The position numbers and the translations under genes were made by a program. From positions 1,550,001 through 1,614,000 of the forward strand of contig NZ_CP040887.1 of assembly GCF_006337125.1 (NCBI RefSeq): a stretch of 64,000 nucleotides of DNA. The letters are read 5' to 3'. Shown here in pieces: positions 9,480-56,219 of the stretch. The notes beneath the pieces are model-generated. The model was not told the DNA's origin, made no database searches, and worked only from the letters and a program-made list of their open reading frames with translations. How positions within the stretch are numbered: the stretch's first letter is position 1; each line of letters starts with the position of its first letter. Source of the stretch: Serinicoccus chungangensis (GTDB lineage: Bacteria; Actinomycetota; Actinomycetes; Actinomycetales; Dermatophilaceae).

Positions 9480-9486
9480 ACAGCCC

Positions 9487-9510
9487 CGCCCCGCTCAACT
9501 ACGAAGAGCC
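9487..9510 (-). repeat. Right inverted repeat of ISL3
   Basis: Perfect inverted copy of 8096-8119. It follows the transposase stop codon by 7 bases. Confidence 0.92.
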
Positions 9511-9518
9511 GTTAATGG
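9511..9518 (+). repeat. Right 8-bp target-site duplication of ISL3
   Basis: GTTAATGG, identical to 8088-8095. Confidence 0.92.
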
Positions 9519-9900
9519 TGGGTTATTGCTCAAACGTCGGTAGGTCAGCACGTCGACGCGCTCCCCGGCGAGGAGGAATCTCGTCCGCTCTGCGCCTCCC
9601 CCGCCGAAGGACGTGGCCATGGCGGATGCATCCGCAGGCAGGGACCCTGGCGTGGTGGCCCAAACGAGTAGTTCGAGGCCCCCGTCGCATAGTGCCCGCC
9701 TGTGACGCACTACCAGGGTGGCATCGCGGCCGTCCAATGTCGCCGACCACCTGAGGACGGAGCACGGGCCGTCCCTTCTAGTATACGTGGCTAGACTCGA
9801 GAGCGACCCACTTCACCGAAGACTCCATCAGGAAGAGAAAAGAAAACAAGGTCTAGTCGAGACGGAACGACCTACGGACCGTGTGGGCACCGACTCGTGA
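9519..9900. other. 382-bp spacer between ISL3 and the OLD gene; possible gene remnant
   Basis: A minus-strand frame from ATG 9737 to 9495 gives 80 residues that look moderately protein-like (DATLVVRHRRALCDG near the start, LLAGERVDVLTYRRLSN near the end). Its last codons come from the IS end, and without the IS it would run antisense into the upstream gene. I do not recognise it and would not call it a gene. Nothing else is seen. Confidence 0.3.
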
Positions 9901-11604
9901 CTAGGCGACCGGGGATGAGAGTCCATTCGCGGAACGGATGCGCCCTGCTAGGGCTCTCACTAGTTTGCGAAGACGAGGCTCGATATGTTCAGCTCGCAAT
10001 TGTGGTGCCACGACCTTTGCGATGGCAGCTTTGGCGGGGAGCTTGCACCCTGCGAACGGATCCTCATACCTACCAACGGCTACCTTGAGCCTGGACCCCT
10101 TCTCCGGATGAATTTGCTGGACCGCAGCACGCAAAATATCCCGGGGCAGCAAGTTCTCGACGGTGCGGACCCAATTTGCGACGACTAGGTCGCCAGTTGC
10201 GGACAAGTCAGCCTCCTCAACAAGCCTCAGAAGCAATGGTGGAAGCTTATCTGAGGGGCGCCTCTTATCGCTGTCTGCAATCAGCGTGCACCGTCTGCCA
10301 AATTGTAGTAGTTCTATCAGGTCAGAAGCTACGTCTTGTGCGTCGGGATGGTTTTCCGCCTTCTTGAGCTGCGCAGCCAGAGACAAGTGTGAAGCCAGTT
10401 TCCCACCGTACATCATTACTCCAAAATGCACACCCTCCTGCAATTCGGGGTCCAGTAGACTGATCCATGAACGCCAGTACAATCGGTCAGACGGTCCCTC
10501 CACCCAGATGGTGTAGTTGGCCTGCAAGATGTCCGAGGCCAAGTATCCTAGGTCTGCTGTCACGCTGGCAAGAGCGTCGCGAACCACAGGGCCTGTCACT
10601 TGTGACGAATCACCATCATGAGTAACGTGGAAAACGTGAGCTCCGGGGGTATCCAAAGCATGCGCCGAGTGTGTGGCCACCACGTACTGATTGTCAGTGG
10701 CTTCCAGTAGATAGCGCATCAGCCGCCTCTGCAGACCCGGGTGGAGGTGGATCTCCGGCTCCTCCAGAAAAATTAAGTGCTTGGAGAAGTGTGTGCAAGC
10801 GACGGCGATCATGAGTAGTTGCTTTACCCCATCGCCCAGATCGTCCAGAAGTAGGTAATCTCCGTGCTGCGCCAGACGTACTTGCAGTTCGGTATGGTCG
10901 GCCGATATGGTCACGTCGGCTAGATCGTCCTCCAGGACCTGACGCAGAAACTTCTTTACCTTCTCCCAACGCTCCTGCTTGGGGTGCCGGGACTGCAAGG
11001 TCGGTCGCTCCCAGTCGGCCAATGTCTCCAGCACTCCCGTACCGTTGGCGATTGCATCTTCGCCAGGCTTCCCGGGCTTCACACTGCGAAAAGCAGGAAG
11101 CGTGACCGCCCCGAGGAATGACGGATGTAGGGAGTCTGCTGAGAAGAGGCTGTCTTCACCCACGGATGAGGCGCGACCCAGCAAAGCACTCAGGGCTTGC
11201 CTGTTGACTCGCTGCGGTCCTATCTGAGGCACCCACATGTACGTGTCATCAAGGTCTAATACCACCCCCTCATTTCGCATTCGGTCGAGCTCCCTTTGCA
11301 TGACCGAAACATTGTTGCCGTACCAAGACTTTAGTCTTGTGGTGTCGATTGCTACGAGTTGTTCATGTTGGTTGCCGGAAGAGAAGTTCGAGGGCGACGG
11401 CGCTGCAAATTTGAGCGCTTGGCGTCCTAAGGTGGATTTTCCATGGTTGTTTCGTCCGACGAGCCGTGTTAGCGGTCCTACCCTTATCGGAGTTTGCCCT
11501 CTGAGCGCACCGACCCCAGTGACCGCATAGCCGTGCAGGTGAACTTCTTCGATATTTTCGTCCTGCATCCTTGCCCCTCCCTGCCTGGCTCTGCATTCAG
11601 TCAT
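9901..11604 (-). CDS. OLD-family ATP-dependent nuclease (AAA ATPase plus TOPRIM)
   Basis: The 567-residue protein begins with an ABC-type ATPase: Walker A GRNNHGKST (residues 50-58), a signature-like LDDLGDGVKQLLMIA and Walker B LIFLEEPEIHLHPG, followed by the H-loop ATHSAH. After it comes a TOPRIM domain with WVEGPSDRLYW and LIADSD. This order defines OLD (overcoming lysogenisation defect) nucleases, used by phage P2 and many bacterial islands against phages. No UvrD-like GajB partner is next to it, so it resembles a stand-alone class 1 OLD and not Gabija. ATG 11568 (MQDENIEE) is an alternative start 12 codons in. The gene is visibly less GC-rich than the flanking chromosome, consistent with transfer. 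Confidence 0.88.
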   Translation of the reverse strand: MTECRARQGGARMQDENIEEVHLHGYAVTGVGALRGQTPIRVGPLTRLVGRNNHGKSTLGRQALKFAAPSPSNFSSGNQHEQLVAIDTTRLKSWYGNNVSVMQRELDRMRNEGVVLDLDDTYMWVPQIGPQRVNRQALSALLGRASSVGEDSLFSADSLHPSFLGAVTLPAFRSVKPGKPGEDAIANGTGVLETLADWERPTLQSRHPKQERWEKVKKFLRQVLEDDLADVTISADHTELQVRLAQHGDYLLLDDLGDGVKQLLMIAVACTHFSKHLIFLEEPEIHLHPGLQRRLMRYLLEATDNQYVVATHSAHALDTPGAHVFHVTHDGDSSQVTGPVVRDALASVTADLGYLASDILQANYTIWVEGPSDRLYWRSWISLLDPELQEGVHFGVMMYGGKLASHLSLAAQLKKAENHPDAQDVASDLIELLQFGRRCTLIADSDKRRPSDKLPPLLLRLVEEADLSATGDLVVANWVRTVENLLPRDILRAAVQQIHPEKGSRLKVAVGRYEDPFAGCKLPAKAAIAKVVAPQLRAEHIEPRLRKLVRALAGRIRSANGLSSPVA

Positions 11605-12164
11605 GCGATTCGACCATAACTTGGTGGAAGACTAGCAAGTGGGGTAGTGCTTTGCAGTCTTCTGGGTCACCTCTACGTTGTCGCACGCCGTCAGGCCACC
11701 TCGAATGCTGCCTTGGGCGCCGGGGTAAGGCATGGAGTGAGCAGAATGAGGGCCGGGCGAGGTCAGGTTCGACCGGCTAGCACTAGTGGGGGCGCGTGCG
11801 GGCGCGGGAGACTGGAACGCCGCGGTCAGCTGGCGCTGCGAGCGCTTCACCGGGTAGGGGTAGGTCTCGGCAGTCGGCGGAGTTGGCCATCTACGGCCGG
11901 CGCCAACCGCTTGACGCGGCATGTCAGCGATGTATCACCCCCCACCGCGTCCCGATCACCGACATATTCTGGATGAGCGTTCGCTCACCGGCACATGTGC
12001 CCGTCGTCACGTCGGCTTACAAGCATCCGACTTTCGGCAGATCCGGTATGTCATGACCATGGCGGCCGGCAGTCTGGTGCACCGCGCTTCGCGTCGTCTC
12101 ACATGCGTCTCTCGGTGTGGCCGACCCTTGATCGCTCCGGCAGGCGGTCCTGCCGCACGCTGAC
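11605..12164. other. 560-bp spacer, no gene seen
   Basis: Open frames here are short and have shadow-like Arg/Pro/Ser composition. The stretch should contain the minus-strand promoter of the OLD gene and the right boundary of the island. I found no copy of the tRNA-Val 3' end, no terminal repeat and no RNA structure I can name. Confidence 0.4.
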
Positions 12165-42658: not shown

Positions 42659-42784
42659 GGTGGTGGCCTCTCGCATAGGGACCGCGAGCGCGGCCATCGG
42701 GGCCGCCTCGACATGACGTTGACCCCTCGACCCTACCCAACGCGCCGGTCCGCGACCGGGACGAGGTCGGGCGGCGACGGTGCG

Positions 42785-42790
42785 TAGGGT
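42785..42790 (+). promoter_or_regulatory. Candidate -10 element of a leaderless promoter
   Basis: TAGGGT precedes ATG 42798 by 7 bases. Confidence 0.42.
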
Positions 42791-42797
42791 CGGTCCC

Positions 42798-43508
42798 ATG
42801 TTCGTCCGCAGCATCGTCGCCGACGCCTTCGGCACCAACTGCTACGTCGTGGCCCCTGCCGAGGGGGAGGAGTGCGTCGTCGTCGACCCGGGGATCGGTG
42901 TCGAGCGACGGGTGCAGGACGTCCTCGCCGAGCACCGGCTCCGCCCGGCCGCCGTCCTGCTCACGCACGGCCACCTGGACCACGTGTATGCCGTGACCCC
43001 GGTCTGCGCGGGCACCACCGCGGTCCGCCCATACATCCACACGGACGACCGCTACCGGCTGCAGGACCCGTTGTCCTCGCTGGGCCCCGAGCTCGTCCTG
43101 GCGATGGAGCAGCAGTTCGGTCGTCGGGCCACCTGGACCGAGCCGGAGGAGGTCGTCGAGCTGGCCGACGCGCAGGACCTCGAGATCGCCGGTCTGCGGA
43201 TCGGCGTGGCGCACGCGCCGGGCCACACCGAGGGCTCGGTGCTGTTCACCACCGCGGGGGTGCCCGACGGCATACCGGGCCAGGAGCTGGACCGGACCGT
43301 CATCTCCGGCGACGTCCTCTTCGCCGGGTCGATCGGTCGCACCGACCTGCCGGGCGGCGACGGCGCGGCGATGCGGCGCAGCCTGCGTGACGTGGTGCTG
43401 CCGCTGGCCGACTCCTCGCTCGTGCTGCCCGGTCACGGGCCGGCCACGACCATGGCGCGGGAGCGGGCCACCAACCCCTACCTCAGCGGTCTGTCGACCA
43501 GCGGCTGA
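42798..43508 (+). CDS. MBL-fold metallo-hydrolase (glyoxalase II-like)
   Basis: The 236-residue protein has the metallo-beta-lactamase metal motif THGHLDHVYAV (about residue 58), a second His in HAPGHTEGSVLF, Asp in ISGDVLFAGSIGRTDLPGGD and a final His in LPGHGPAT. These bind two metals. The GRTDLPGGD stretch is typical of actinobacterial members annotated as hydroxyacylglutathione hydrolase-like; the native thioester is uncertain because these bacteria use mycothiol. A -10-like TAGGGT ends 7 bases before the ATG. It is convergent with the small alarmone synthetase gene, with only 3 bases between the stops. Confidence 0.9.
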   Translation: MFVRSIVADAFGTNCYVVAPAEGEECVVVDPGIGVERRVQDVLAEHRLRPAAVLLTHGHLDHVYAVTPVCAGTTAVRPYIHTDDRYRLQDPLSSLGPELVLAMEQQFGRRATWTEPEEVVELADAQDLEIAGLRIGVAHAPGHTEGSVLFTTAGVPDGIPGQELDRTVISGDVLFAGSIGRTDLPGGDGAAMRRSLRDVVLPLADSSLVLPGHGPATTMARERATNPYLSGLSTSG

Positions 43509-43511
43509 CGG

Positions 43512-44210
43512 CTACGCCCGCGCTTCCGGGCTGCCGCCGTGCAGCTCGCGGTGCAGCCGCTGCATCCGGGCGTCCAGCTCGGCGGCGCTGGTCGCGGCGT
43601 CCTTGAGCTCGGTGAGCAGGCCCTCGGGGACGTTGCCGTCGTACTTGTAGTGGATCTTGTGCTCGGTGCTGGCCCAGAAGTCCATGGCGATGGTGCGCAG
43701 CTGCACCTCGACGGGCACGTCGACACGCCCGGTGGAGAGGTAGACCGGCACCTCGACGATGGCGTGCAGGCTCTTGTAGCCGTTCGTCTTGGGCTGGGCG
43801 ATGTAGTCCGAGACGCGGCGGATGGTGATGTCGTCCTGCTGGGTGAGCAGGTCGAAGATCCGGTAGGCGTCGGTGACGAAGCTGCACGACACCCGGATGC
43901 CGGCGATGTCGGTGATCTCGCGCCGGATGGTCTCGAGGTCCAGGGTCAGGCCGCGCCGGAGCACCTTGTCGCGCAGGCTGTCCGGGGACTTGACCCGGCT
44001 GGAGACGTGCTCGATGGGGTTGTAGTCGTGCATGTGGGCGAACTCGTCGCGCAGGATCTCGATCTTGGTCTCGACCTCGCGCAGCCCGAACTCGTACTCC
44101 AGCAGGAAGCGCTGCAGCTGGCTGCCCACCTCCCGCAGCTGGGCGGGGGTGATGCCACCCTCCGTGGCCAGGGCGAGGGAGGGCGGCTCGGCGGCGGCAG
44201 CGGTGCTCAT
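43512..44210 (-). CDS. Small alarmone synthetase (RelQ/YjbM-like GTP pyrophosphokinase)
   Basis: The 232-residue protein contains only the RelA/SpoT synthetase domain: SPDSLRDKVLRRG, IRREITDIAGIRVSCSFVTDAYRIFDLL, KTNGYKSLHAIVEVPVYL and VEVQLRTIAMDFWASTEHKIHYK. The last is the classic C-terminal signature of single-domain synthetases, which also form tetramers. No HD hydrolase domain is present. It probably makes (p)ppGpp or pGpp from transcription-level or stress cues, complementing the ribosome-bound Rel encoded 6 kb away. Start ATG 44210 follows TGGAGG. A Pro/Ala-rich N-terminal stretch of about 20 residues precedes the domain. Confidence 0.92.
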   Translation of the reverse strand: MSTAAAAEPPSLALATEGGITPAQLREVGSQLQRFLLEYEFGLREVETKIEILRDEFAHMHDYNPIEHVSSRVKSPDSLRDKVLRRGLTLDLETIRREITDIAGIRVSCSFVTDAYRIFDLLTQQDDITIRRVSDYIAQPKTNGYKSLHAIVEVPVYLSTGRVDVPVEVQLRTIAMDFWASTEHKIHYKYDGNVPEGLLTELKDAATSAAELDARMQRLHRELHGGSPEARA

Positions 44211-44282
44211 GTCCTCCACTATGCCCCGCGTCGGCGTCGCGTGCCCGTGCGCGGGGCGGCGGGGGCACGGCATACCGCTCGA

Positions 44283-44294: not shown

Positions 44295-45692
44295 GTGATC
44301 TCCCCGCGCACGCCCTCCGGTGTCCTCGAGCTGCTGCCGCCGGAGCAGGTCGCCTTCCAGAGGATGCTGGACGCGATCCGCTCCGGCTACGAGCGGTTCG
44401 GCTTCCTCCCGATCGAGACGCCGGTCTTCGAGCGCTCCGACGTGCTGCTCACCAAGACCGGCGGCGAGACCGAACGCCAGGTCTACTTCGTGCAGTCCAC
44501 CGGTGCGCTCGACAAGGCGCGCGCCGAGGGCGGCGACGAGGGGCTGCCCGATCTCGCGCTGCGCTTCGACCTCACGGTGCCGCTCGCGCGCTACGTCGCC
44601 GAGCACGAGCACCAGCTGACCTTCCCGTTCCGGCGCTACCAGATGCAGCGCGTCTACCGCGGCGAGCGGCCGCAGCGAGGGCGGTTCCGCGAGTTCTACC
44701 AGTGCGACGTCGACATCATCGGCTCCGGCGAGCTGTCCGTCCGCCACGACGCCGAGGCGCCGGCGATCATCAACGCGATCTTCACCGACCTGGCGATCGG
44801 CACCTTCACCATCCAGATCAACAACCGCCGGCTGCTCCGCGGGTTCTACGAGGACCTGGGCATCACCGACGGCGACGTCCAGGCGGCCGTGCTGCGCGAG
44901 GTCGACAAGCTCGACAAGCGGGGCGCCGACTACCTGCGCAGCACCCTGACGGGGGAGGGCTTCGGGCTGGCCGACGAGGTCGTGGAGCGCATCCTGTCGT
45001 TCGTGCAGACGCGCTCGACCGGCCACGCGGACGCCCTGGCCCGGCTCTCCGAGGTGGAGGCGGCCTCCACCGGCAGCAGCGCGCTGGCCGAGGGGGTCGC
45101 CGAGCTGCGCGAGGTGCTCGCCCTCGTCCGCGCGCTCGGTGTCCCGGAGAGCAACTACTGCCTCAACTTCTCCATCGCCCGCGGGCTGGACTACTACACC
45201 GGCACGGTCTACGAGACGACCCTCGACGAGCACCCCGAGCTGGGCTCGATCTGCTCCGGCGGCCGCTACGACGACCTGGCCGGCCAGTACACCCGTTCGC
45301 GCCTGCCCGGGGTGGGCATCTCCATCGGGCTGTCCCGGTTGTTCTGGCAGCTGCGCGAGGCGGGTCTCATCGACGCCTCGGCGGGGGAGTCGACCGTGCA
45401 GGTGCTCGTGCCCCAGGTCGACCCCGAGCTGCTCGACGACCAGCTCGCGCTCGCCTCCCAGCTGCGGCACGGCGGCATCAACACCGAGGCGGTCCTCGAC
45501 GGCGGCAAGCTGGGCAAGCAGCTGCGGTATGCCGACCGCGCCGGCATCCGCTTCGTCGCCCTGCTCGGCGCCCAGGAGGTCGCCGACGGCACGGTCACCC
45601 TCAAGGACCTGCGCCGCCAGGACCAGTTCACCGTGCCGCGGGACGAGGTCGTCAGCGCGCTGCGGGTCGAGCTGGCCCAGCCCCTGGTCTGA
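44295..45692 (+). CDS. hisS: Histidyl-tRNA synthetase
   Basis: This 465-residue class II synthetase carries motif 1 ([16 protein letters not shown]), motif 2 ([16 protein letters not shown] and [25 protein letters not shown]), the histidine-binding segments [13 protein letters not shown] and [12 protein letters not shown], and motif 3 ([13 protein letters not shown]), followed by the anticodon domain. The inserted domain and the gap between motifs are of usual length. The [25 protein letters not shown] stretch is longer than in E. coli but common in actinobacteria. GTG 44295 follows a -10-like TAGACT by 6 bases. The gene stands alone and is followed by tandem repeats. Confidence 0.96.
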
Positions 45693-45839: not shown

Positions 45840-46532
45840 TCAGTCGTCGACGGTCACCGACAGGATGCTGATCGGCTGGGCGGGGGCGCCGTCGCCGCCG
45901 CCGGAGCCGGTGCCCTCGGCGGCGACGCCCTCGACGATGTCCAGGCCCTCGGTGACCCGGCCGAAGATGCTGTAGCCGCCGCCCTCCACGGGCAGCTGGG
46001 TGTCGTCGTAGACGACGAAGAACTGGCCCCCGTTGCTGTCCGGGTCCTGGGTGCGGGCCATCGCCAGCGTGCCGGGTGGGTACATCCCCGTCTCCGGGGC
46101 GTTCTCGATGCCGTAGCCGTAGCCCGGGCCGCCCTGGCCCGTGCCGGTGGGGTCGCCGCACTGCAGCACGTAGATCCCGCTGGTCGTGAGCCGGTGGCAC
46201 GGGCTGTCCTGCCAGTAGCCCTCCTCGGCGAGGAAGGCGAAGGACGCCACGGTCTGGGGCGCGTCCGCGGCGTACAGCTCGAGCCCGATGTCGCCGCAGG
46301 TGGTCTCCAGCGTGGCGGTGACCGTCGCCGGGTCGCCGCCCAGCGGCTCCGGGAGGTCCTGCGGGGAGTAGGTCGTCACGTCGGCGGGCGGCTCCGGGGC
46401 CTCCTCGCACGACAGGGGCGCCGGGGAGGCGTCGGACCCCTCCTCCTCGAGCTGCAGACCCGGGGACGCCCCGTCCCCGCAGGCGGTGAGCAGGAGGAGG
46501 CTGGCGGCGAGGGGCGCGAGTCGGCGGTGCAC
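45840..46532 (-). CDS. Cyclophilin-type peptidyl-prolyl isomerase lipoprotein
   Basis: The 230-residue precursor has a lipoprotein signal ending LLLLTAC (Cys about residue 18), then an acidic linker and a cyclophilin domain: LAMARTQDPDSNGGQFFVVYDD and YSIFGRVTEGLDIVEGVA are its fingerprints, and the catalytic Arg is in SPCHRLTTSG. It would act outside the membrane on prolines of secreted proteins. The C-terminal ten residues after the barrel include a Gly-rich stretch (GTGSGGGDGAP). The start is GTG 46532. Similar lipoproteins lie next to hisS or rel in many actinobacteria. Confidence 0.92.
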   Translation of the reverse strand: MHRRLAPLAASLLLLTACGDGASPGLQLEEEGSDASPAPLSCEEAPEPPADVTTYSPQDLPEPLGGDPATVTATLETTCGDIGLELYAADAPQTVASFAFLAEEGYWQDSPCHRLTTSGIYVLQCGDPTGTGQGGPGYGYGIENAPETGMYPPGTLAMARTQDPDSNGGQFFVVYDDTQLPVEGGGYSIFGRVTEGLDIVEGVAAEGTGSGGGDGAPAQPISILSVTVDD

Positions 46533-46647
46533 CCGGGCATCCTCGCACGTCTTTTTGGAGCCCCCCGTGGCAGCGTGTTAGCGTGATAGCACGTTGATAC
46601 ACCCCCGGCGGGGCGAACCCCGTCCGGTCGAGCACGGAAGGACGCGC
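46533..46647. other. Divergent promoter region of the cyclophilin gene and the his cluster
   Basis: The spacer contains AT-richer sequence with TTAGCGTGATAGCACG at 46577-46592. Its AGCGTGATAGCACG part has near-dyad symmetry (GCGTGATAGCACG read either way differs in few positions), and a -10 like GATAGC is possible. It may be the operator of the YerC-like repressor. A GAAGGA ribosome site precedes ATG 46648. Confidence 0.4.
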
Positions 46648-46983
46648 ATGAAGCAGCGGGACACCCACGGCTCCGCGCTCGCCACCCGTGCCCGGGTGCG
46701 GGCCGACCTCGCCCACGTCCTCGCCGCCCTGCGCGACCCCGCGTCCGTGGACGCCTTCCTGGACGACCTGTGCACCCCCGCCGAGATCGAGGCGCTGGCC
46801 GACCGCTGGTCGGTGGTGCCCCTGCTCGCCGAGGGGATGTCGTACCGCCAGATCCACGACGTCACCGGCGTCAGCGTGACCACGGTCGGGCGGATCGCCC
46901 GGTGCGTGGAGGGTGGCGCCGGCGGGTACCGTGCCGCCCTGGAGCATCGTCGTGCGCACCCGGCGGGCGCCTCCACCGCCTGA
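46648..46983 (+). CDS. YerC/YecD family TrpR-related regulator
   Basis: The 111-residue protein has the TrpR-like helical fold: an N-terminal helix, [29 protein letters not shown] and the helix-turn-helix [19 protein letters not shown], followed by YRAALEHRR. YerC-type proteins are DNA-binding repressors; in Bacillus a relative controls histidine genes. Its place 88 bp upstream of hisG in the same direction strongly suggests that it represses this his operon, sensing histidine or a related compound. As I recall, a TrpR-like gene also stands before hisG in xanthomonads, which fits the transfer hypothesis for the entire operon. Confidence 0.85.
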
Positions 46984-47071
46984 GGCACCCGCCGGCCTGC
47001 GCCGCCCCCGTTCCCCCGCCCCTCCTGAGCACCGCACCCGGTGCGGGAGCCCAGAGCCCCGAAAGGCCCCG
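46984..47071. other. Leader between the YerC-like gene and hisG
   Basis: This 88-bp gap contains GAAAGG 6 bases before the hisG ATG as a ribosome site. I see no run of His codons of the enteric attenuator type and no terminator hairpin, so regulation by attenuation is not supported. Confidence 0.4.
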
Positions 47072-47980
47072 ATGACCCCGCCTGCCCAGCCCCGCGAGCG
47101 CCTGCGCGTGGCGATCCAGAAGTCCGGCCGCCTCGGCGACCCGGCCCGCGAGCTGCTCGCCTCCTGCGGGCTGACCTGGCGCGAGAGCCGGGACCGGCTG
47201 TTCTGCTACGGCGAGAGCCTGCCGGTGGACCTGCTGCTGGTGCGCGACGACGACATCCCCGGGCTCATCGCCGACGGCGTGTGCGACCTCGGCATCGTCG
47301 GGCGCAACGTGCTCGTGGAGCACGGGCTGGCCCGGGAGGCCCAGGGTCGCGGCGTCGAGCTCACCGAGTGGCGCCAGCTCGGGTGGGGCACCTGCCGCCT
47401 CGACATCGCCATCGACGAGGAGCAGGAGTGGACCGGGCCCGAGCAGCTGGCCGGCCTGCGGATCGCCACGTCCTACCCGCACACCCTGGGCCGGTGGCTG
47501 GCCGAGCAGGGCGTGCAGGCCGACCCGGTCGTGCTCAACGGCTCGGTGGAGATCGCCCCCCGCCTGGGCCAGGCCGACGTCGTCTGCGACCTCGTCTCCA
47601 CGGGCGGCACGCTGCGCGCCAACCAGCTCACCCCGGTGACGACGATCCTGCACAGCGAGGCCGTCATCGCCGGGCCCGGGCGGACCCTGGACGACGGGCG
47701 CCAGGAGATCGCCGACCTGCTGCTGCGCCGCCTCGACGGGGCCGTGCAGCTCAAGGAGTCCCGGCTGCTCATGCTGCGCACCGCGCGCAGCGGTCTCGAC
47801 ACCGTCCTCGGGCTGCTGCCCGAGGGCCACGAGCCGACGGTCATGGCGGTGGAGGGGCGCGACGAGGTGGCGCTGCAGATGCTCGTGCACGGCCCGGTGT
47901 CGTGGGCCCGGCTCGAGGACCTCAAGCGCTCCGGGGCGCACAACCTCATGGTGCTGCCGGTGGAGGGGATGCTGGCATGA
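47072..47980 (+). CDS. hisG: ATP phosphoribosyltransferase HisG (long form)
   Basis: The 302-residue long-form HisG catalyses the first histidine step, ATP plus PRPP. Fingerprints are [81 protein letters not shown] (PRPP loop) and a C-terminal ACT-like regulatory domain with [32 protein letters not shown] and SYPHTL are shared with the enteric proteins as I recall them. Actinobacterial HisG proteins normally start differently. It is the first structural gene of the operon and overlaps hisD by ATGA. Confidence 0.95.
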
Positions 47981-49290
47981 ACATCCTCACCTGGGCCGAC
48001 CTCGACGACACCCAGCGACGCGAGGCGCTGCGGCGCGGGACCGCGGCCGCCGGGCCGGAGGTCACCGCCGGCGTCGCCCAGATCCTGCAGCAGGTGCGCG
48101 AGGGCGGGGACGAGGCGCTGCTCGAGCTCACCGCGCGCCTGGACGGAGCCCGTCCCGCCGCGCTGCGGGTCCCCGTCGCCGACCGGGACGCCGCGGCCGC
48201 CGCGCTGGACCCCGGGCTGCGCGCCGCGATCGCCGAGGCGGCCGGCCGCATCCGCACCTTCCACGAGGCCGGCATGCAGCAGGGGTATGCCGTCGAGACC
48301 GCCCCCGGTGTCGTCTGCCGGCGGGTGGTGCGCCCGATCCGCCGGGTCGGCCTCTACGTCCCCGCGGGGTCGGCCCCGCTGCCCAGCACGGCGCTCATGC
48401 TGGGCGTCCCCGCCCAGCTCGCGGGCTGCCCCGAGGTCGTGCTCTGCACGCCGCCGCGGCCCGACGGCACCGCCGACCCGGCCGTCCTGGCGGCGGCGGC
48501 CGAGTGCGGCATCGAGGACGTCTTCGTCGTCGGGGGAGCCCAGGCGGTGGCCGCGATGGCCTACGGCACCGCCTCGGTCCCGGCCTGCGACAAGCTCTTC
48601 GGGCCGGGCAACGCGTGGGTGACCGAGGCCAAGCGGCAGGTGAGCACCGCGGAGGGCGGCCCCGGCATCGACATGCCGGCCGGTCCCTCCGAGGTGCTCG
48701 TCATCGCCGACGCGGGCGCCGACCCCGAGTTCGTCGCGGCCGACCTGCTCTCGCAGGCCGAGCACGGCCCGGACAGCCAGGTCGTCCTGCTCACCGACAG
48801 CCCGCAGCTCGCGTCCGCCGTCGCCGCCCAGGTCGCCGAGCAGGTCGAGTCGCTGCCGCGGGCCGACATCGCCCGCAAGGCGCTGGCGTCCTCCCGCCTC
48901 GTCGTCACCGCCGACCTCGACCAGGCGGTCGAGGTGTCCAACGACTACGCCCCCGAGCACCTCATCCTGGCCCTGCGCGACGCCGAGGACTGGGTGGGCC
49001 GCATCGACCGGGCCGGGTCGGTCTTCCTCGGCGACCACACGCCGGAGACGCTGGGCGACTACTGCTCGGGCACCAACCACGTGCTCCCCACGGCCGGCGC
49101 GGCGCGCTTCACCGGCGGGGTCAACGTCGCCGCCTTCCAGATCGCCATGACCGTCCAGCAGGCCACGCCCCGGGGGCTGGCCGCGGTGGGGCCCTGCGCG
49201 GTGACCCTGTCCGAGGCCGAGGCGCTGCACGCCCACCAGCGCGCGGTGACCCGTCGCCTCGCCCGGCTCCCCGAGGGGGCGGCGACATGA
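47977..49290 (+). CDS. hisD: Histidinol dehydrogenase
   Basis: The 437-residue enzyme carries out the last two oxidations to histidine with NAD and zinc. Visible are [72 protein letters not shown], and the zinc/catalytic region [15 protein letters not shown] (Gln and His), YAPEHLIL (Glu-His) and [23 protein letters not shown]. All fit. [15 protein letters not shown] and [11 protein letters not shown] resemble proteobacterial HisD more than typical actinobacterial ones, which fits the operon-wide pattern. It is coupled on both sides by ATGA overlaps. Confidence 0.95.
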
Positions 49291-50471
49291 GCCCGGCACG
49301 CGGGGAGCTGGCCTTCCCCACCGACCTCCTGCGGCCCGACCTGCGCGGCTTCGCCGGCTACTCCTCGGCCCGCACCAGCACCCCCACCGGCGCGGCGGAC
49401 CGCATCTGGCTCAACGCCAACGAGTCCGGCGTCGCCAACCCCGCCGACGCCTCGGGGGCCTCGCGGCGCTACCCGGACCCCCAGCCCGCCGAGCTCGTCG
49501 AGGCGTTCGCCGACCTGTGGGCGACCACCCCCGACCGGGTCGTCGTCGGACGTGGCAGCGACGAGGCGATCGAGCTGCTCGTGCGCAGCCTGTGCCGCCC
49601 CGGCGGGGACGGCGTCGTCGTCACCTCCCCGACCTTCGGGATGTATGCCGTGTCCGCCCGGCTGCACGGCGTGCCCGTCGTCGACGTGCCGCAGGTCGAC
49701 GACGGCCTGCGCTGGCACGTCGACACCGCCGCCGTCGCCCGCGCGGCCCGGGAGCACGGCGCCCGCGTCGTCTTCCTCGCCTCGCCCGGCAACCCGACCG
49801 GGTCGGTGGTGCCGCTGCGCGAGGTCGCCCGGCTCGCCGAGGAGCTCGCCGACCAGGCGGTCGTCGTGGTCGACGAGGCCTACGGCGAGTTCGCCGCGCA
49901 GCGCTCGGCCGTGACCCTGCTCGAGGAGCACCCCACGCTGGTCGTCCTGCGCACCCTGTCCAAGGCGCACGCCCTGGCCGGCGCCCGCGTCGGCATCGCG
50001 CTGGCGCACCCCGACCTCACCGCGGTGCTGCGTCGGGTGCAGGCGCCCTACCCGCTGCCGGAGCCGGTGACGAGGCTCGCGCTGCAGGCCCTGGCCCCGC
50101 AGGCCCGGCAGGCGACGGGGGAGCACGTCGGCGACGTGCTGCGCCTGCGGGACGAGGTCGGGCGGTGGCTGCGCGACCTGCCCGAGGTGCGCACCGTCTA
50201 CGCCAGCGAGGCCAACTTCTTCCTGGTCCGGTGCGACGACCCGGACGCGCTGCTGCATACCCTGGACACCGCCGGGATCGTGGTGCGCGACATGCGCCAC
50301 CTGCCCGGCCTGGACGACGCGCTGCGCATCACCATCGGCACCGGCCCGGAGATGCGGACCCTGCGCGGCGCCCTGGCCGGTCCCGCCGACGACACCACCG
50401 CGGCACCCGGCCCGGCCGGCGGCCGCGCGCCGACCGAGACCCCCACCCCGACCGAGGAGACCCCCGCATGA
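49287..50471 (+). CDS. hisC: Histidinol-phosphate aminotransferase
   Basis: The 394-residue PLP enzyme shows [12 protein letters not shown] near the start, the cofactor cradle [40 protein letters not shown] and the Schiff-base lysine in [16 protein letters not shown] (about residue 228). HisC transfers the amino group of glutamate to imidazole-acetol phosphate. The last 35 residues ([20 protein letters not shown]) are a disordered tail not usual for the family. It overlaps hisD and hisB by ATGA. Confidence 0.94.
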
Positions 50472-51538
50472 GCCCCCGCCCGATCTGCTTCGTCGACCGC
50501 GACGGCACGATCATCACCGAGCCGCACGACCACCAGGTGGACGCGCTCGAGAAGGTGGCCTTCGTCGACGGGGTCATCCCCGCCCTGCTGCGGATCCAGG
50601 CGGCCGGGTTCGACCTCGTCATGGTGAGCAACCAGGACGGCCTGGGCACGGAGTCCTTCCCCCAGGCCGACTTCGACGCCGCGCACGGCCTGGTCATGCA
50701 GGTCCTCGGCAGCCAGGGCGTCACCTTCCGGGACGTCTTCGTCGACCCGCACCACGCGGGCCCGGACGCGCCGTGGACCCGCAAGCCCGGCATCGGCATG
50801 GTCGTGCACCTGCTCAAGGACCGCGGCGTCGACTGGGAGCGCTCGGTCATGGTCGGCGACCGGGAGACCGACCGGGAGTTCGGCGACAACCTCGGCATCC
50901 GCACCTACCTGCTGCCGGGGGACGACTGGGCGCAGATCGCGCACGAGCTCGCCGACGCCCCGCGCACCGCCCGGGTGGAACGGGCGACCTCCGAGACCAG
51001 CATCACCGTCGAGGTGGACCTCGACGCGACCGGGGGCAGCGAGATCTCCACCGGCATCGGCTTCTACGACCACATGCTCGACCAGCTGGCCAAGCACGGC
51101 GGCTTCCGGATGCGGGTCGCCTGCAGCGGTGACCTGCACATCGACGACCACCACACCGTCGAGGACGTCGCCCTCGCGGTCGGCGAGGCGATCCGGACGG
51201 CGCTGGGCGACAAGCGGGGCATCGGCCGCTACGGCTTCACCCTGCCGATGGACGAGGCCCAGGCCACCGCGGCGCTCGACCTGTCCGGGCGGCCCTACTT
51301 CGCCTACGAGGGCAGCTTCGAGCGGGAGAGCGTCGGCGACTTCTCCACCGAGATGGTCGAGCACTTCTGGCGCTCCTTCGCCGACGCCATGCGCTGCACC
51401 CTGCACCTGTCGGTGACCGGCAGCAACACCCACCACATGATCGAGGTCGGCTTCAAGGCGGTCGCCCGCGCGCTGCGGATGGGCATCGCCCGGCAGGGGG
51501 ACTCGGCCGAGCTGCCCTCGACCAAGGGCGTCCTGTGA
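50468..51538 (+). CDS. hisB: Bifunctional histidinol-phosphatase / imidazoleglycerol-phosphate dehydratase HisB
   Basis: The 356-residue protein fuses an N-terminal HAD phosphatase (CFVDRDGTIITEP with Asp10 and Asp12, then VSNQDGLGTESFPQADFD, GDRETDREFG) to a C-terminal dehydratase (GFYDHMLDQLAKHGGF, IDDHHTVEDVALAVGEAI, GIGRYGFTLPMDEA, then FKAVARALRMGI). The length is that of the enteric/xanthomonad fused protein. Actinobacteria normally have a dehydratase alone and a separate HisN phosphatase, so this fusion is unexpected. The zinc loop of E. coli HisB (Cys93, His95, Cys101, Cys103) reads DPHHAGPDAPW here, keeping only His95. The gene is coupled to hisC and hisH. Confidence 0.95.
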   Translation: MSPRPICFVDRDGTIITEPHDHQVDALEKVAFVDGVIPALLRIQAAGFDLVMVSNQDGLGTESFPQADFDAAHGLVMQVLGSQGVTFRDVFVDPHHAGPDAPWTRKPGIGMVVHLLKDRGVDWERSVMVGDRETDREFGDNLGIRTYLLPGDDWAQIAHELADAPRTARVERATSETSITVEVDLDATGGSEISTGIGFYDHMLDQLAKHGGFRMRVACSGDLHIDDHHTVEDVALAVGEAIRTALGDKRGIGRYGFTLPMDEAQATAALDLSGRPYFAYEGSFERESVGDFSTEMVEHFWRSFADAMRCTLHLSVTGSNTHHMIEVGFKAVARALRMGIARQGDSAELPSTKGVL

Positions 51539-52137
51539 GGGTCGCGCTCGTCGACGGCGGCGGCACCAACATCGGCTCGGTCAGCTACGCCCTCGAACGT
51601 CTCGGCGCGACGAGCCGGCTCACCGCCGACGCCGGCGACATCCTGGCGGCGGACCGGGTCATCCTCCCCGGCGTCGGCGCCGCCGGGGCGGGCATGCGCC
51701 GGCTGCGCGAGCTCGGGCTCGTCGACGTGCTGCACCAGGTGGAGGCTCCGCTGCTCGGGGTGTGCCTGGGGATGCAGCTGCTCTTCGAGCGCTCCGCCGA
51801 GGACGGCGGTGTCGAGACCCTCGGTCTCGTCCCGGGCGAGGTGCGCGGCATACCGCCCCGTCCTGGCGTCCGGGTGCCGCACATGGGCTGGAACTCCCTG
51901 GTCGACCTCGTCGAGGACCCGCTGCTCATTGGGATCGAGGAGGGTGAGCGGGCCTACTTCGTCCACTCCTACGCCGCGCCGGCCGGGGCGTCCACGCTGG
52001 CCGCGACCGAGCACGGGGGCCGGTGGAGCGCGGTGGTGCGCTCCGGCCGGCGGTGGGGCGCGCAGTTCCACCCGGAGCGGTCTGCCGGGCTCGGGGCGAG
52101 GTTTCTGCGAAACTTCCTCCACGAGGTCGAACGATGA
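51535..52137 (+). CDS. hisH: Imidazole glycerol phosphate synthase glutaminase subunit HisH
   Basis: The 200-residue class I amidotransferase supplies ammonia to HisF. The nucleophile Cys is in [14 protein letters not shown] and the partner His-Glu in [23 protein letters not shown] and YFVHSYAAP are also visible. The stretch [19 protein letters not shown] and the ending GARFLRNFL resemble gamma-proteobacterial HisH as I remember it, and differ from the actinobacterial form, which has an N-terminal LDYGSGNVRS-like start. It begins with GTG overlapping hisB and overlaps hisA by ATGA. Confidence 0.95.
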
Positions 52138-52934
52138 CACGACGCATGGCCCCCGCAGCCGACACCGGAGAGATCCACGTGACCCACACCGGACCGTTCA
52201 CCGTCTACCCCGCGATCGACGTGCGCGGCGGGGCCGTGGTCCGCCTGCTCCGGGGCGACTACGACCAGGAGACCCGCTACACCGACAACCCGGTGGCGGT
52301 CGCCGAGAACTACGCCCGCTCCGGCGCCGCCTGGCTGCACCTCGTCGACCTCGACGCGGCTCGGGCCGGGGGCTACACCCTCGGCGAGACGCTCACGAGG
52401 ATCGTCGAGACCACCGGGCTGCGGGTGCAGACCGGGGGAGGGGCGCGCAGCCTCGAGGACGTCCAGCAGCTGCTCGACGCCGGGGCCGAGCGGGTCGTCG
52501 TCGGCTCGCTGGCGGTGCGGGAGCCGGAGACGGTCGCGGGGTGGCTGGACCACCTCGGCCCGGACCGCATCACCGTCGCCCTCGACACGAGGATCGGCGA
52601 GGACGGGCGCTGGGTGCTGCCGACCTCCGGCTGGACGTCGGTGGGCGAGCAGGACCTCACGACCACCCTGCACCACTACCAGGGCTCCGGGCTGCGCCAC
52701 GTGCTGTGCACCGACATCGGCCGCGACGGGACCCTCTCGGGCCCCAACTTCCACCTCTACACGATGCTCACCCGGTCCAACCCGGCGCTGCAGGTCCAGG
52801 CCTCGGGCGGGGCGCGGTCCGTGGACGACGTCCGCGCGGCCAAGAAGCACGGATGCGCCGGGATCATCCTCGGCAAGGCGCTGCTCGAGGGCCGGCTCAC
52901 CGTCGGCGACGCGGTCCAGGAGGAGCAGGTATGA
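52134..52934 (+). CDS. hisA: ProFAR isomerase HisA
   Basis: The 266-residue TIM barrel isomerises ProFAR to PRFAR. It has [19 protein letters not shown] (catalytic Asp), [49 protein letters not shown] (second Asp) and [21 protein letters not shown]. Two starts are possible. ATG 52134 overlaps hisH as ATGA, like the other operon junctions. GTG 52179, after GGAGAG, gives the usual family N-terminus ([14 protein letters not shown]). Actinobacteria normally use PriA, which also does TrpF, whereas this sequence has the proteobacterial HisA look. Whether TrpF is encoded elsewhere cannot be seen. Confidence 0.93.
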
Positions 52935-53737
52935 CGCTCGCCCGCCGCATCATCCCCTGCCTCGACGTCCGCGAGGGCCGGGTGGTCAAGGGCACCCGCT
53001 TCCGCGACCACCGGGACATGGGCGACATCGTCGAGCTCGCCCGGCGCTACGCCGCCTCGGGCGCCGACGAGCTCGTCTTCTACGACATCACCGCCAGCCC
53101 GGAGGGGCGGGGCGTCGACGTCGGCTGGGTGGAGCGGGTCGCCCGCAGCATCGACATCCCCTTCTGCGTCGCCGGCGGGATCCGCTCGGTGTCGACCGCA
53201 CGGGCCGTCCTGCACGCGGGGGCCGACAAGGTCTCGGTCAACACCCCCGCCACGCAACGCCCCGAGCTGGTGGGCGAGCTCGCCGAGGCCTTCGGGGTCC
53301 AGTGCGTGGTCGTCGGCGTCGACAGCCTGCGCGACGCGGACGGCCACTGGCGGATCCGGCAGTTCACCGGCAGCCCGGACGCCACGCGGGCGCTGGAGGT
53401 GACGACCCTGGACTGGGTCCGCCGGGTCGTCGACCTGGGGGCGGGCGAGGTGGTGCTCAACTGCATGGGCTCGGACGGCGTCCGCGACGGCTACGACCTC
53501 GAGCAGCTGGCGGCCGTGCGCGCGCAGTGCCCGGTGCCGCTCGTGGCCAGCGGGGGTGCGGGGACGCCGCAGCACTTCGTCGACGTCTTCCGCGAGGCCG
53601 ACGTCGACGGCGCCCTCGCCGCCACCGTCTTCCACGACGGGTCCATCCCCATCCCCGCGCTCAAGCAGACCCTGGCGCAGGCCGGCGTCGAGGTGCGCCT
53701 GGACGCGTCCCCCACCCCCACGCAGGAGGCCTCGTGA
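52931..53737 (+). CDS. hisF: Imidazole glycerol phosphate synthase cyclase subunit HisF
   Basis: The 268-residue TIM barrel makes imidazole glycerol phosphate and AICAR from PRFAR and ammonia. Fingerprints are [20 protein letters not shown] (catalytic Asp), [60 protein letters not shown] (second Asp) and [41 protein letters not shown] and [10 protein letters not shown] match the proteobacterial type, since the actinobacterial one has GDPVELAxxY and EADGTKDGYD-like residues. It is coupled to hisA and hisIE by overlaps. Confidence 0.95.
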
Positions 53738-54438
53738 GCGACTCCCCGGCACCCCGCGAGGACGGCGGCGGCCCCGACCACCACGACGCCCCCGACCGCG
53801 GCGCAGGACCCACGGGCCCGGCGTCGGTGGAGGTCGGCTTCGCGGTCACAGACGTCGACTTCGCCAAGACCGACGGCATCGTGCCGGGGGTGGTCCAGCA
53901 CGCGAGGACCGGCCAGGTGCTCATGGTCGGCTTCCTCGACGAGCAGGCGCTGAGGACCACCCTCGACACCGGCCTGGCGACCTTCCACAGCCGCAGCCGG
54001 GGGACGCTGTGGACCAAGGGCGAGACGAGCGGCAACGTGCTGCGCGTCGAGGCGGTCGAGCTCGACTGCGACCGGGACACCCTGCTGCTGCACGCCCTGC
54101 CCTCCGGCCCGACGTGCCACACGGGGGAGCGGACGTGCTTCGACCCCGGTGCACGCCCCGGGTCCTTCGTGCACGAGCTGGACGAGGTCGTGCGGGGGCG
54201 GCAGCTGGAGCTGCCCGAGGGGTCCTACACCACCACGCTGTTCACCGGCGGGGTGCGCAGGGTCGCGCAGAAGGTGGGCGAGGAGGGCGTCGAGACCGCG
54301 CTCGCGGCGGTCGCCCAGGACGACGAGGCGCTGCTGGGGGAGTCGGCCGACCTCGTCTACCACCTGCTCGTGCTGCTGCGCTCGAGGGACCTGGGGCTGG
54401 CCGACGTCGAGCGGGTGCTCCGGAGACGGCACGGCTGA
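53734..54438 (+). CDS. hisI: Bifunctional phosphoribosyl-AMP cyclohydrolase / phosphoribosyl-ATP pyrophosphatase HisIE
   Basis: The 234-residue fused protein has the HisI domain (about 35-130: [46 protein letters not shown] with metal-binding Asp and Cys) and the HisE domain (about 135-230: [30 protein letters not shown]). The two carry out steps 2 and 3 of the pathway. The fusion is typical for proteobacteria; most actinobacteria have hisI and hisE apart. The first 33 residues are a disordered Asp/Gly/Pro stretch. GTG 53734 overlaps hisF. Two hairpins follow. Confidence 0.94.
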
Positions 54439-54498: not shown

Positions 54499-55113
54499 TC
54501 AGCCGGGGCCGGGGCGTGCGCGCAGACCGACCTCGGCGAGCTCCAGGTCGGCGAGGGCGCGGATCGTGGCCGGGTCGCCCGAGCGCCAGGCGGCGACGGG
54601 GTCGTCGGAGAGCTGCTGCAGGCGCCGCGGGTGCTGGTGGACCAGGGCCCGCAGGGCGAGCAGCTCCTGCGACCGCGGGTCGTGCAGCTCACGACCGAGG
54701 GAGCGGGCACGCCGCACCCAGGAGAGCCGGAGCACCAGCCAGAGCAGGACGACGATGAGCACGGGGGTCACGGTCGACAGCACGCTGACCAGCCAGGCCA
54801 CGGTCCGGACCCCGGTCTCGAGCCGGTCGGCCGCGGTGACCAGGTCGGTCCCGACGCCCGCGGCGCCGGTGAAGGGTGCGTCCAGCTCGTCACCGACCAG
54901 GGGGATCTCGGTCACCCGGCCCGCGACCTCCTCCATCCGGGACTCGAGGCCGGTGCCTGCTGCCCGCAACGGGACCGCCGGCGCGGCGAGCGTCATGACG
55001 AGGTCGAAGACCAGGCGACCGACGAGCACCCAGAGGACCACCCAGCCCAGGACGAGCAGGTCGGCGAGGACCTGACGGGAGCGGCGGGCGGGAGCATCGG
55101 CGTACCAGCGCAT
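54499..55113 (-). CDS. Hypothetical two-helix membrane protein
   Basis: The 204-residue protein has TM segments at about residues 15-40 and 100-125, a periplasmic-side helical loop between them (LESRMEEVAGRVTEIPLVGD) and a basic cytoplasmic tail (LSWVRRARSLGRELHD, then LLALRALVHQHP). I recognise no named domain, although similar two-helix proteins near xerD are common in actinobacteria. ATG 55113 (MRWYADAPARR) was chosen over the in-frame ATG 55215. It is divergent from xerD. Confidence 0.75.
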   Translation of the reverse strand: MRWYADAPARRSRQVLADLLVLGWVVLWVLVGRLVFDLVMTLAAPAVPLRAAGTGLESRMEEVAGRVTEIPLVGDELDAPFTGAAGVGTDLVTAADRLETGVRTVAWLVSVLSTVTPVLIVVLLWLVLRLSWVRRARSLGRELHDPRSQELLALRALVHQHPRRLQQLSDDPVAAWRSGDPATIRALADLELAEVGLRARPGPG

Positions 55114-55232
55114 GAGGGCAGTTTCCCCCACCCGCACCGGACGTGCGGCGGTGCCGCACCGCACGGGCGTCGTGCTCCGCCGGGTGCGCGTCACGCGACC
55201 GCGGTGTGCCGCCACCTGAGAGGATCGCGTCC

Positions 55233-56219
55233 GTGAGCACGTCCGCCGCCCAGAGCACCCAGCGCACGCCGCTGGCGCGCGCGGCCGGCGACTGGCTGGA
55301 CCACCTGAGGGTGGAGCGGGGCCGGTCCGACCACACGCTGCGCGCCTACCGTCGCGACCTCGACCGCTACCTGGGCTACCTGGACGGCCTGGGCGTGCGG
55401 ACGCCCGAGGACGTGCGCGAGCAGCACGTGACCGGTTTCCTGGCCCACCTGCGCACCGGCGACGACGGGCACCAGCCGCTCGCGGCCACGTCGGCGGCGC
55501 GGGCCGTCGTGGCGGTGCGCGGCCTGCACACCTTCCTCGCGGTGGAGGGGCAGGCCGCGGCCGACCCCGCCCGCGAGGTCACCCCGCCGACGCCGCCTCG
55601 CCGGCTGCCCACGGCGCTGACCGTGCGCGACGTGGAGCGGCTGCTGCAGGCCGCCGCCCTGGGCGACACCCCGGCCGCGCTCCGCGACCGGGCGCTGCTG
55701 GAGGTGCTCTACGGGTGCGGTGCCCGGGTGAGCGAGGCGATCGCCCTCGACGTCGACGACCTGGAGCTCGGCCGCGAGGACGGGGGCAGCGGCGGTGTGC
55801 TGCGGCTGTTCGGCAAGGGACGCAAGGAACGCGTCGTGCCGATGGGGCGGTATGCCCGGGACGCCGTCGACACCTGGCTGGTCCGGGGCCGCCCGGAGCT
55901 CGCCCGGCGCGGCGCGGGCACCCCCGCCGTGTTCGTCAACGCGCGGGGCGGCCGGCTCTCGCGGCAGTCCGCCTGGACCGCGATCAAGGCCGCGGCCGAC
56001 CGGGCGGGCCTGCGCGGCGAGATCTCGCCGCACACCCTCCGTCACTCCTTCGCCACCCACCTGCTCGACGGCGGCGCGGACGTCCGGGTCGTCCAGGAGC
56101 TGCTCGGCCACGCCTCGGTCGCGACGACCCAGATCTACACCCACGTGTCGACCCAGCACCTGCGGGAGGTGTACGCCCAGGCGCACCCGCGCGCCCGCAC
56201 CGCCCCGGACCGGGCCTGA
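55233..56219 (+). CDS. xerD: Tyrosine recombinase XerD/XerC
   Basis: The 328-residue recombinase has the SAM-like N-terminal domain ([27 protein letters not shown], split here by a helix break) and the catalytic residues in order: Arg in [15 protein letters not shown], Lys in [12 protein letters not shown], His-x-x-Arg in [18 protein letters not shown], His in [15 protein letters not shown] (Tyr at YTH). XerD resolves chromosome dimers at dif with XerC. The position upstream of parA and scpAB is the canonical actinobacterial xerD site. The start is GTG 55233; GAGGAT lies 7 bases before it, so the message may be leaderless. Confidence 0.94.

Follow-up and report, generated by a model that had tools for sequence, protein, structure and literature searches.

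How did an actinobacterium come to possess a complete histidine operon of the type found in Xanthomonadales, and what became of its own? This question is raised by a 64-kb stretch of the Serinicoccus chungangensis genome (contig NZ_CP040887.1, positions 1,550,001 to 1,614,000), hereafter the window, in whose own positions all features are numbered; the genome of the window is called G000, its genus g1 and one sister genus g57. A preliminary description had placed nine genes in the order yerC-hisG-D-C-B-H-A-F-IE at 46648-54438 and proposed that the whole operon, with its regulator, was acquired laterally from a xanthomonad-like source. All nine genes were recovered at that place, and trees, distribution and synteny support the transfer. 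As a whole, it is very probable that a Xanthomonadales hisS-his block took the place of native hisS in the ancestor of g1 and g57, that the native his genes were then pruned, and that the PriA left behind (hereafter PriA', encoded by priA') became a TrpF-only enzyme.

Gene content of the operon

The features concerned are the following.

44295..45692, + strand: hisS, histidyl-tRNA synthetase of Lysobacteraceae type, standing at the native actinobacterial hisS site
46582..46601, no strand: predicted HisR operator, an imperfect palindrome of 20 bp (CGTGATAGCACGTTGATACA) lying 46 bp ahead of yerC/hisR
46648..46983, + strand: hisR/yerC, TrpR-family regulator gene that opens the operon, as it does in Xanthomonadales (TIGR02531, 56.7 bits for a cut-off of 42.2; PF01371)
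47072..47980, + strand: hisG, long form with C-terminal domain
47977..49290, + strand: hisD, the sole hisD found in the genome
49287..50471, + strand: hisC
50468..51538, + strand: hisB, fused histidinol-phosphatase/imidazoleglycerol-phosphate dehydratase (NF003937, 512.6 bits for a cut-off of 443)
51535..52137, + strand: hisH
52134..52934, + strand: hisA, HisA-only type (Trp145 kept, Arg143 of PriA absent)
52931..53737, + strand: hisF
53734..54438, + strand: hisIE, fused cyclohydrolase-pyrophosphohydrolase (NF002747, 249.4 bits for a cut-off of 187)

All seven junctions between his genes are 4-base overlaps (ATGA or GTGA, with the starts chosen here) and 88 bases separate yerC from hisG, which bears out the near-universal short overlaps first described; likewise, the fusions proposed for HisB and HisIE both score above curated cut-offs. 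HisA rather than PriA had been expected in the operon, and indeed the window protein passes the HisA model (238.9 bits for a cut-off of 228.95) and stays under the PriA cut-off (TIGR01919, 157.9 versus 306.45 bits). Contamination of the assembly was considered and ruled out, since G000 is a single clean contig of 3.46 Mb (99.99% complete, 0.3% contamination) and 33 genomes are concordant; this genome holds one hisD and one hisS. The GC content at third codon positions (GC3) was alike in the his genes (0.92-0.99) and in their flanks (0.93-0.99), and neither GC content nor GC3 of the his genes gave a foreign signal against their neighbours; GC3, which had been put forward as a test of amelioration, was therefore uninformative here.

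Distribution and origin of the His proteins

The operon belongs to the whole genus g1 and to the sister genus g57, and not to this genome alone. Indeed, a fused HisB over the cut-off was found in 33 of 186 family genomes, namely 31/31 in g1, 2/2 in g57 and 0/153 elsewhere (4 of the latter have no HisB match at all), and in only one of 396 genomes sampled over the phylum, that one being the window's own (45 without match). Among 27 family and order relatives outside g1, 26 gave a HisB match, at best with 43-52% identity over the dehydratase half, while the nearest HisB proteins came from an uncultured Serinicoccus (96%), S. kebangsaanensis (86%) and Ornithinimicrobium (77-80%).

Outside actinobacteria, the best HisB matches were a Lysobacterales metagenome-assembled genome (MAG), a proteobacterial MAG and Lysobacter silvestris (60-63%), followed by other Gammaproteobacteria at no more than 56%. 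In the order of L. silvestris, HisB was matched in 145 of 151 genomes (about 20 of them over the dehydratase half only), and 20 full-length loci were taken for comparison; yerC was matched in 22 of 23 Xanthomonadales loci, the contig of the 23rd (L056) starting inside hisD. Compared with Xanthomonadales, with other Gammaproteobacteria and with native family loci, the window proteins averaged identities of, respectively, 61, 50 and 42% for HisD, 50, 39 and 35% for HisC, 59, 54 and 46% for HisB, 58, 44 and 40% for HisH, and 54, 44 and 35% for HisA. For the three proteins with no native comparison, the first two values were 58 and 44% (HisG), 70 and 59% (HisF) and 57 and 50% (HisIE).

Phylogenies against Xanthomonadales, which the preliminary description had called for, gave the same picture. 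Eight concatenated His proteins (FastTree, 61 rows by 2367 columns) nested g1+g57 (1.0) inside Xanthomonadales, with other Xanthomonadales and Gammaproteobacteria outside, and IQ-TREE (28 rows) gave 100/100 both to g1+g57 and to their union with a Lysobacter-type core. When Xanthomonadales were forced to exclude g1+g57, the log-likelihood difference reached 349 and the constrained tree, searched in fast mode, was rejected by the approximately unbiased (AU) test (4e-64). The group g1+g57 was also recovered in single-gene trees for 9 of 10 families, HisS being the exception. Note that the trees comprised 44-141 rows for single genes, 61 for PriA/HisA, 42 and 27 for housekeeping genes and 37 for the HisS topology test, after exclusion of rows with internal stops, low coverage or short stretches (as an example, 21/24 g1 for hisS and 23/24 g1 for hisC). 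In addition, HisF matches in native family loci were cross-matches (25%, read as PriA) and were removed from the HisF tree. Taken together, the sequence comparisons support a Xanthomonadales lineage as the source of the His proteins, and we infer a Lysobacter-like donor below the order level.

Regulator and operator

The proteobacterial HisR motif is the palindrome TGTAnTArnnnnyTnTTACA, and actinobacterial HisR is reported only from Coriobacteriales and Eggerthellales in the portion of the source at hand (PMC9413887), whose main text, to the same extent, contains none of the words 'Ornithinimicrobium', 'Serinicoccus' and 'Micrococcales'. The site at 46582-46601 differs from this motif by 3 mismatches on both strands, for 0.15 matches expected by chance in 64 kb; one other site with 3 mismatches occurs in the window (11244-11263), and the Firmicutes/Actinobacteria HisR motif has no match within these 64 kb. 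A site with at most 4 mismatches was found in the ~260 bp upstream of yerC in 24/24 g1, 2/2 g57, 19/22 Xanthomonadales and 6/6 other gammaproteobacterial loci. Shuffled g1 upstream sequence equalled the site in 0-6 of 100 trials; the site of the Xanthomonadales locus L204, equalled in 22 of 100, is no better than chance. Regulator and predicted operator appear to have travelled together.

Altogether, the operon resembles the hisR(yerC)-hisGDCBHAFIE operon of Xanthomonadales in gene order, in the HisB and HisIE fusions, in the long HisG, in the TrpR-family regulator as first gene, in the proteobacterial-type HisR operator and in a hisS shortly upstream, as seen in 14 of 22 loci there. In contrast to it, the present operon lies in an actinobacterium at the native hisS site, its GC3 is that of its neighbours, and its operator has diverged (3 mismatches in the window versus 0-2 in most Xanthomonadales).

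Integration site and hisS

The site was recognized from the following genes, all outside the transfer.

42780..43508, + strand: metallo-beta-lactamase (MBL)-fold hydrolase gene (Pfam), native left flank, adjoining native hisS in 15/15 loci of other family genera
45840..46532, - strand: cyclophilin-type peptidyl-prolyl isomerase gene, neighbouring the native site in 10/15 other-genus loci
54499..55215, - strand: conserved gene without Pfam match; part of the native right flank, separating xerD from native hisS in 13/15 loci
55143..56219, + strand: xerD-type recombinase gene (longest frame) with parA behind it; part of the native right flank

All 15 loci of the other family genera read relA, DUF349, MBL, native hisS, xerD and parA, with the cyclophilin gene before MBL in 10 and the homologue of 54499-55215 before xerD in 13. 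In g1, the hisS-hisR-his block lies between the same flanks (the MBL gene adjoins hisS in 13/18 loci and the right-flank gene is present in 16/18), and therefore the block occupies the place of native hisS. Where the MBL gene was not seen beside hisS in g1, it is lacking there in L134, and the stretch is cut or none is shown in L137, L140, L147 and L150. In the subclade of the window, hisS and yerC are separated by the cyclophilin gene.

The preliminary description had limited the transfer to the nine genes; these are all there, but the limits were too narrow, since hisS appears to belong to the same transferred block. Its product shows 63-71% identity to 14 Xanthomonadales loci versus 41-45% to 15 native loci of other family genera. 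Among its best 120 database matches, those named below Ornithinimicrobium, Serinicoccus and Ornithinicoccus were Lysobacter, Novilysobacter, Cognatilysobacter, Vulcaniibacterium and a Lysobacterales MAG, along with two 'soil metagenome' labels. This hisS type is full-length in 27 of 29 g1 genomes (in pieces in G004, a weak fragment in G023) and present in 2/2 g57, and the other family genera reached 42-48% identity in the same search. Of the 22 Xanthomonadales loci bearing yerC, 14 have a hisS upstream of it at a distance of 0.2-4 kb; the fetched stretch of the other 8 contains none.

A few observations were made alongside. Compared with solved structures, the window HisS scores 366 bits with 3net, 239 bits with a cytoplasmic enzyme, presumably the human one, and 109 bits with 1kmm, which we take to be the E. 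coli enzyme; the Xanthomonadales histidyl-tRNA synthetase seems to be of another type than that of E. coli. A small RelA/SpoT-domain gene (43512-44240, - strand) stands between the MBL gene and hisS, is also found in L149, L150 and L224, was not seen in the 15 other-genus loci, and is possibly a later insertion at the same site. In g57, an opposite-strand frame of 533-540 codons lies between hisS and yerC (L132 1417-3018, - strand; L133 1477-3099, - strand). Finally, the region at ~9000-12000 of the window has a GC content of 0.58-0.61, versus 0.70-0.77 over most of the window from 12 kb on, and may be a younger insertion.

Native his locus

In the other family genera, all 18 loci carry native hisD, hisC, hisB, hisH, priA and sseB in that order, some with inserted genes; 15 of them have a small gene, x8316, after hisB and before hisH, and glnE is found upstream within the stretch in 9. 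The 20 g1 loci fetched (of 31 g1 genomes) and both g57 loci all read glnA-glnE-x8316-priA'-sseB, and no match to hisD, hisC, hisB or hisH was found at this native locus in any of them. The native hisDCB-priA operon, which had been expected to be missing, is thus gone for hisD, hisC, hisB and hisH, but its priA was kept in place. Indeed, priA' is present in 31/31 g1 and 2/2 g57 genomes, and lies in G000 at C1:1906765-1907451, outside the window. Note that priA' in L231, L232 and L241 and priA in L155 were masked by overlapping queries in the locus listing and were extracted separately.

The PriA model gave exactly three matches per genome in 29 g1 and 2 g57 genomes, none over its cut-off, while 147 of 184 family genomes pass it. 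These three matches are read as HisA, HisF and priA', which would therefore leave no native HisF. Of 184 family genomes, 6 gave a trpF match (PF00697), none of them from g1 or g57. As for hisN, which had also been presumed missing, a match over the HisN cut-off occurs in 0/29 g1 and 0/2 g57 genomes, versus 124/153 others; it is however not cleanly missing, because every genome still has weaker matches, which include paralogues, and its loss or decay is therefore only suggestive. This pattern would be consistent with release from selection.

Elsewhere in the family, G088, G154, G105 and G124 combine a trpF match with a PriA over the cut-off and are candidates for a PriA specialising towards HisA. 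Two genomes of genus g37 (G078 and G079), rated 100% complete, have neither HisB nor PriA match and carry trpF (PF00697); they have apparently lost histidine synthesis and PriA and rely on trpF, the converse of the g1/g57 case, and G080 of the same genus retains HisB and PriA.

Number of transfers

Housekeeping genes of the glnA-pheS region make g1 and g57 sisters (98.6/97 in IQ-TREE with 27 rows and 8 outgroups, 0.989 in FastTree with 42 rows and 11 outgroups). This result, the His trees and the loss of hisDCBH shared by both genera speak for a single transfer in their common ancestor, followed by a move of the block in g57.

Several points weigh against this history. First, the g57 block lies elsewhere, and the native site there has the MBL gene and xerD-parA without a hisS match, so that a later move or a separate integration is needed. 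Second, g57 fell outside the other genera in a species tree built with a single outgroup, and several deeper family nodes are weak in the multi-outgroup species tree. Third, HisS by itself fails to nest g1+g57 within Xanthomonadales: with a sole outgroup on a branch of length 2.5, its best tree leaves g57 outside g1+Xanthomonadales, and a topology that unites g1 and g57 fits just as well (AU 0.48, 37 rows), neither favoured nor rejected. The donor is also subject to reservations: the position of g1+g57 in the Lysobacter-type core varies (sister of the core in FastTree, beside L191 with an ultrafast bootstrap of 77 in IQ-TREE), the label 'Xanthomonadales' for L185-L204 rests on the order assigned to G208 (Lysobacter silvestris), and the loci compared were full-length ones in an order where ~20/151 genomes match only the dehydratase half of HisB. 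Moreover, the survey of native losses covered hisS, hisD, hisC, hisB, hisH, hisF and hisN and, of the trp genes, trpF.

The different sites of the block, the HisS trees and the basal g57 of the single-outgroup tree would all be expected if g1 and g57 had taken the block separately from related Xanthomonadales donors, or if g57 had obtained it from g1. We regard two such transfers as unlikely. Indeed, g1 and g57 are sisters in the His concatenation (100/100) as well as in the housekeeping genes, hisDCBH are absent and x8316 and priA' retained alike in both, and priA' of 20 g1 and 2 g57 form one clade (99.8/100) in the PriA/HisA tree, within which g57 is a long branch at low support. An independent gain by g57 was considered because of its different site and the one-outgroup tree, and was set aside when g57 proved sister to g1 with more outgroups.

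A related question is whether hisS and the his operon arrived in two separate events, their adjacency being due to chance or selection. The HisS phylogeny, which by itself does not settle its placement, and the variable hisS-yerC spacing leave some room for this, but we consider it improbable, given that hisS already precedes yerC in most yerC-bearing Xanthomonadales loci, that hisS and the operon are both Lysobacteraceae-like, and that this hisS type and the fused HisB are both confined to g1+g57 in the family searches.

PriA' and the published SubTrpF2

PriA' diverges fast: its mean pairwise identity within g1 is 0.55, compared to 0.69 for six g1 HisA and 0.77 for the native PriA of 18 other-genus loci. 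It shows 44% identity to native PriA and 31% to the operon's HisA. With residues numbered as in M. tuberculosis PriA as printed in PMC13055916 (all statements on this paper refer to the portion of it at hand), D11, D130, R143 and D175 are kept in all 22 PriA', and R85, T105, W145 and T170, present in all 20 native PriA, are lost in all 22; in addition, loop 1 has 8-10 residues versus 15 in native PriA. The window's HisA type is complementary, with W145 kept and R143 absent in 8/8 rows. Note that the T105S change is weak evidence, because Ser105 is also the usual state of the HisA enzymes in the alignment. As judged from these residues, PriA' has lost contacts to the histidine intermediate N'-[(5'-phosphoribosyl)formimino]-5-aminoimidazole-4-carboxamide ribonucleotide (ProFAR) and has retained those of the TrpF reaction, for which it looks specialised, and the retained priA seems to serve tryptophan synthesis alone.

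This fits an enzyme class described by Rosas-Becerra et al. (2026), in whose survey every Ornithinimicrobium and Serinicoccus genome had both HisA and PriA, and who showed that the O. murale HisA rescues an E. coli hisA mutant only and its PriA a trpF mutant only, the latter enzyme being named SubTrpF2 (PMC13055916). PriA' agrees with SubTrpF2 of Ornithinimicrobiaceae in the HisA alongside, in the lack of trpF, and in the four residues changed and the four kept; our analysis adds the shortening of loop 1. As for the R19Q change listed for SubTrpF2, 18 of 20 native PriA from relatives have Gln at this position already. We differ on its origin. On the basis of a PriA/HisA tree and of the genes around it, PMC13055916 derives the enzyme from duplication of hisA and a new gene neighbourhood; we see in it a native PriA whose gene kept its ancestral position through transfer and pruning. 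The published model now appears highly improbable, since PriA' is closer to native PriA than to the operon's HisA, since HisA falls among Xanthomonadales and PriA' on the PriA side of the tree, and since the 'new' neighbourhood is the his locus of the other genera, glnA-glnE-[hisDCBH]-priA-sseB-infC, without the four bracketed genes. None of the words 'HGT', 'xenolog', 'hisS' and 'Xanthomonad' occurs in the main text of PMC13055916 at hand, and our search of open-licence papers returned no earlier report of this transfer. Finally, it is hardly conceivable that the fused enteric-type operon is ancestral in the family and was replaced by a PriA-type operon in all other genera: its presence in 31/31 g1 genomes would fit, but neither the 153 other family genomes nor the 395 further genomes sampled across the phylum have a fused HisB over the cut-off, the His proteins branch within Xanthomonadales, and priA' is left in a pruned native locus.

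In the Corynebacterium SubHisA that Noda-Garcia described in 2013, the trp genes were reportedly those transferred. As in the present case, horizontal transfer there freed the native PriA of one of its two reactions and led to subfunctionalisation, but that PriA kept the HisA reaction, whereas here the his operon came and PriA kept the TrpF reaction (passages in PMC5404923 and PMC13055916). The SubTrpF of Actinomyces is likewise a PriA reduced to TrpF activity with loss of the loop-5 tryptophan; the driver there was gene loss in reduced genomes, unlike the replacement of the his pathway seen here (PMC5404923, from the part at hand).

Proposed history and implications

The history that we propose builds on what was observed (gene content, donor order, phylogeny, site, absence of hisDCBH, residue changes and an operator-like site) and takes the HisA-only and TrpF-only activities from the published O. 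murale enzymes. The ancestor shared by g1 and g57, an ancestor of Ornithinimicrobium and Serinicoccus, would have received a block of ~10 kb, hisS-[HisR operator]-hisR-hisG-D-C-B-H-A-F-IE, in place of its own hisS, with the MBL hydrolase gene on one side and xerD-parA on the other. The block probably entered by recombination around hisS and would have moved later in g57; both this mechanism and the order of the losses are to be taken as probable only. As the incoming pathway would supply every histidine step, native hisS, hisD, hisC, hisB, hisH and hisF would have become dispensable and been lost. The native priA could presumably not be lost in the same way, because in actinobacteria that lack trpF PriA also supplies the phosphoribosylanthranilate isomerase for tryptophan. 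Freed from its histidine reaction, PriA would have shed ProFAR-contact residues and part of loop 1 and become a TrpF-only SubTrpF2. HisR would bind histidine and the operator and shut off hisR-his, control by the operon's own repressor thus probably persisting.

A complete histidine module, with charging enzyme, repressor, operator and every biosynthetic enzyme, is likely to have crossed phyla as a unit and to have taken over the locus of the native synthetase gene, and so to have led to the loss of one of PriA's two activities. Its entry at hisS points to the synthetase, or to recombination at its gene, as the first target of selection, with the operon as passenger. The data point to whole-pathway transfer and pruning of the native operon, contrary to the hisA-duplication model for SubTrpF2; if true, the case would be both a mirror image of the Corynebacterium SubHisA and a correction of that model. 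Replacement of a whole pathway across phyla, apparently with the cognate aminoacyl-tRNA synthetase, regulator and operator, is seldom so readable, the donor order, the site and the scar of the old operon all being visible in one case. A published enzyme subfunctionalisation would thus become a natural experiment with a known trigger, in which 33 genomes carry the event, the other family genera serve as unaffected controls, and the predictions on PriA can be tested.

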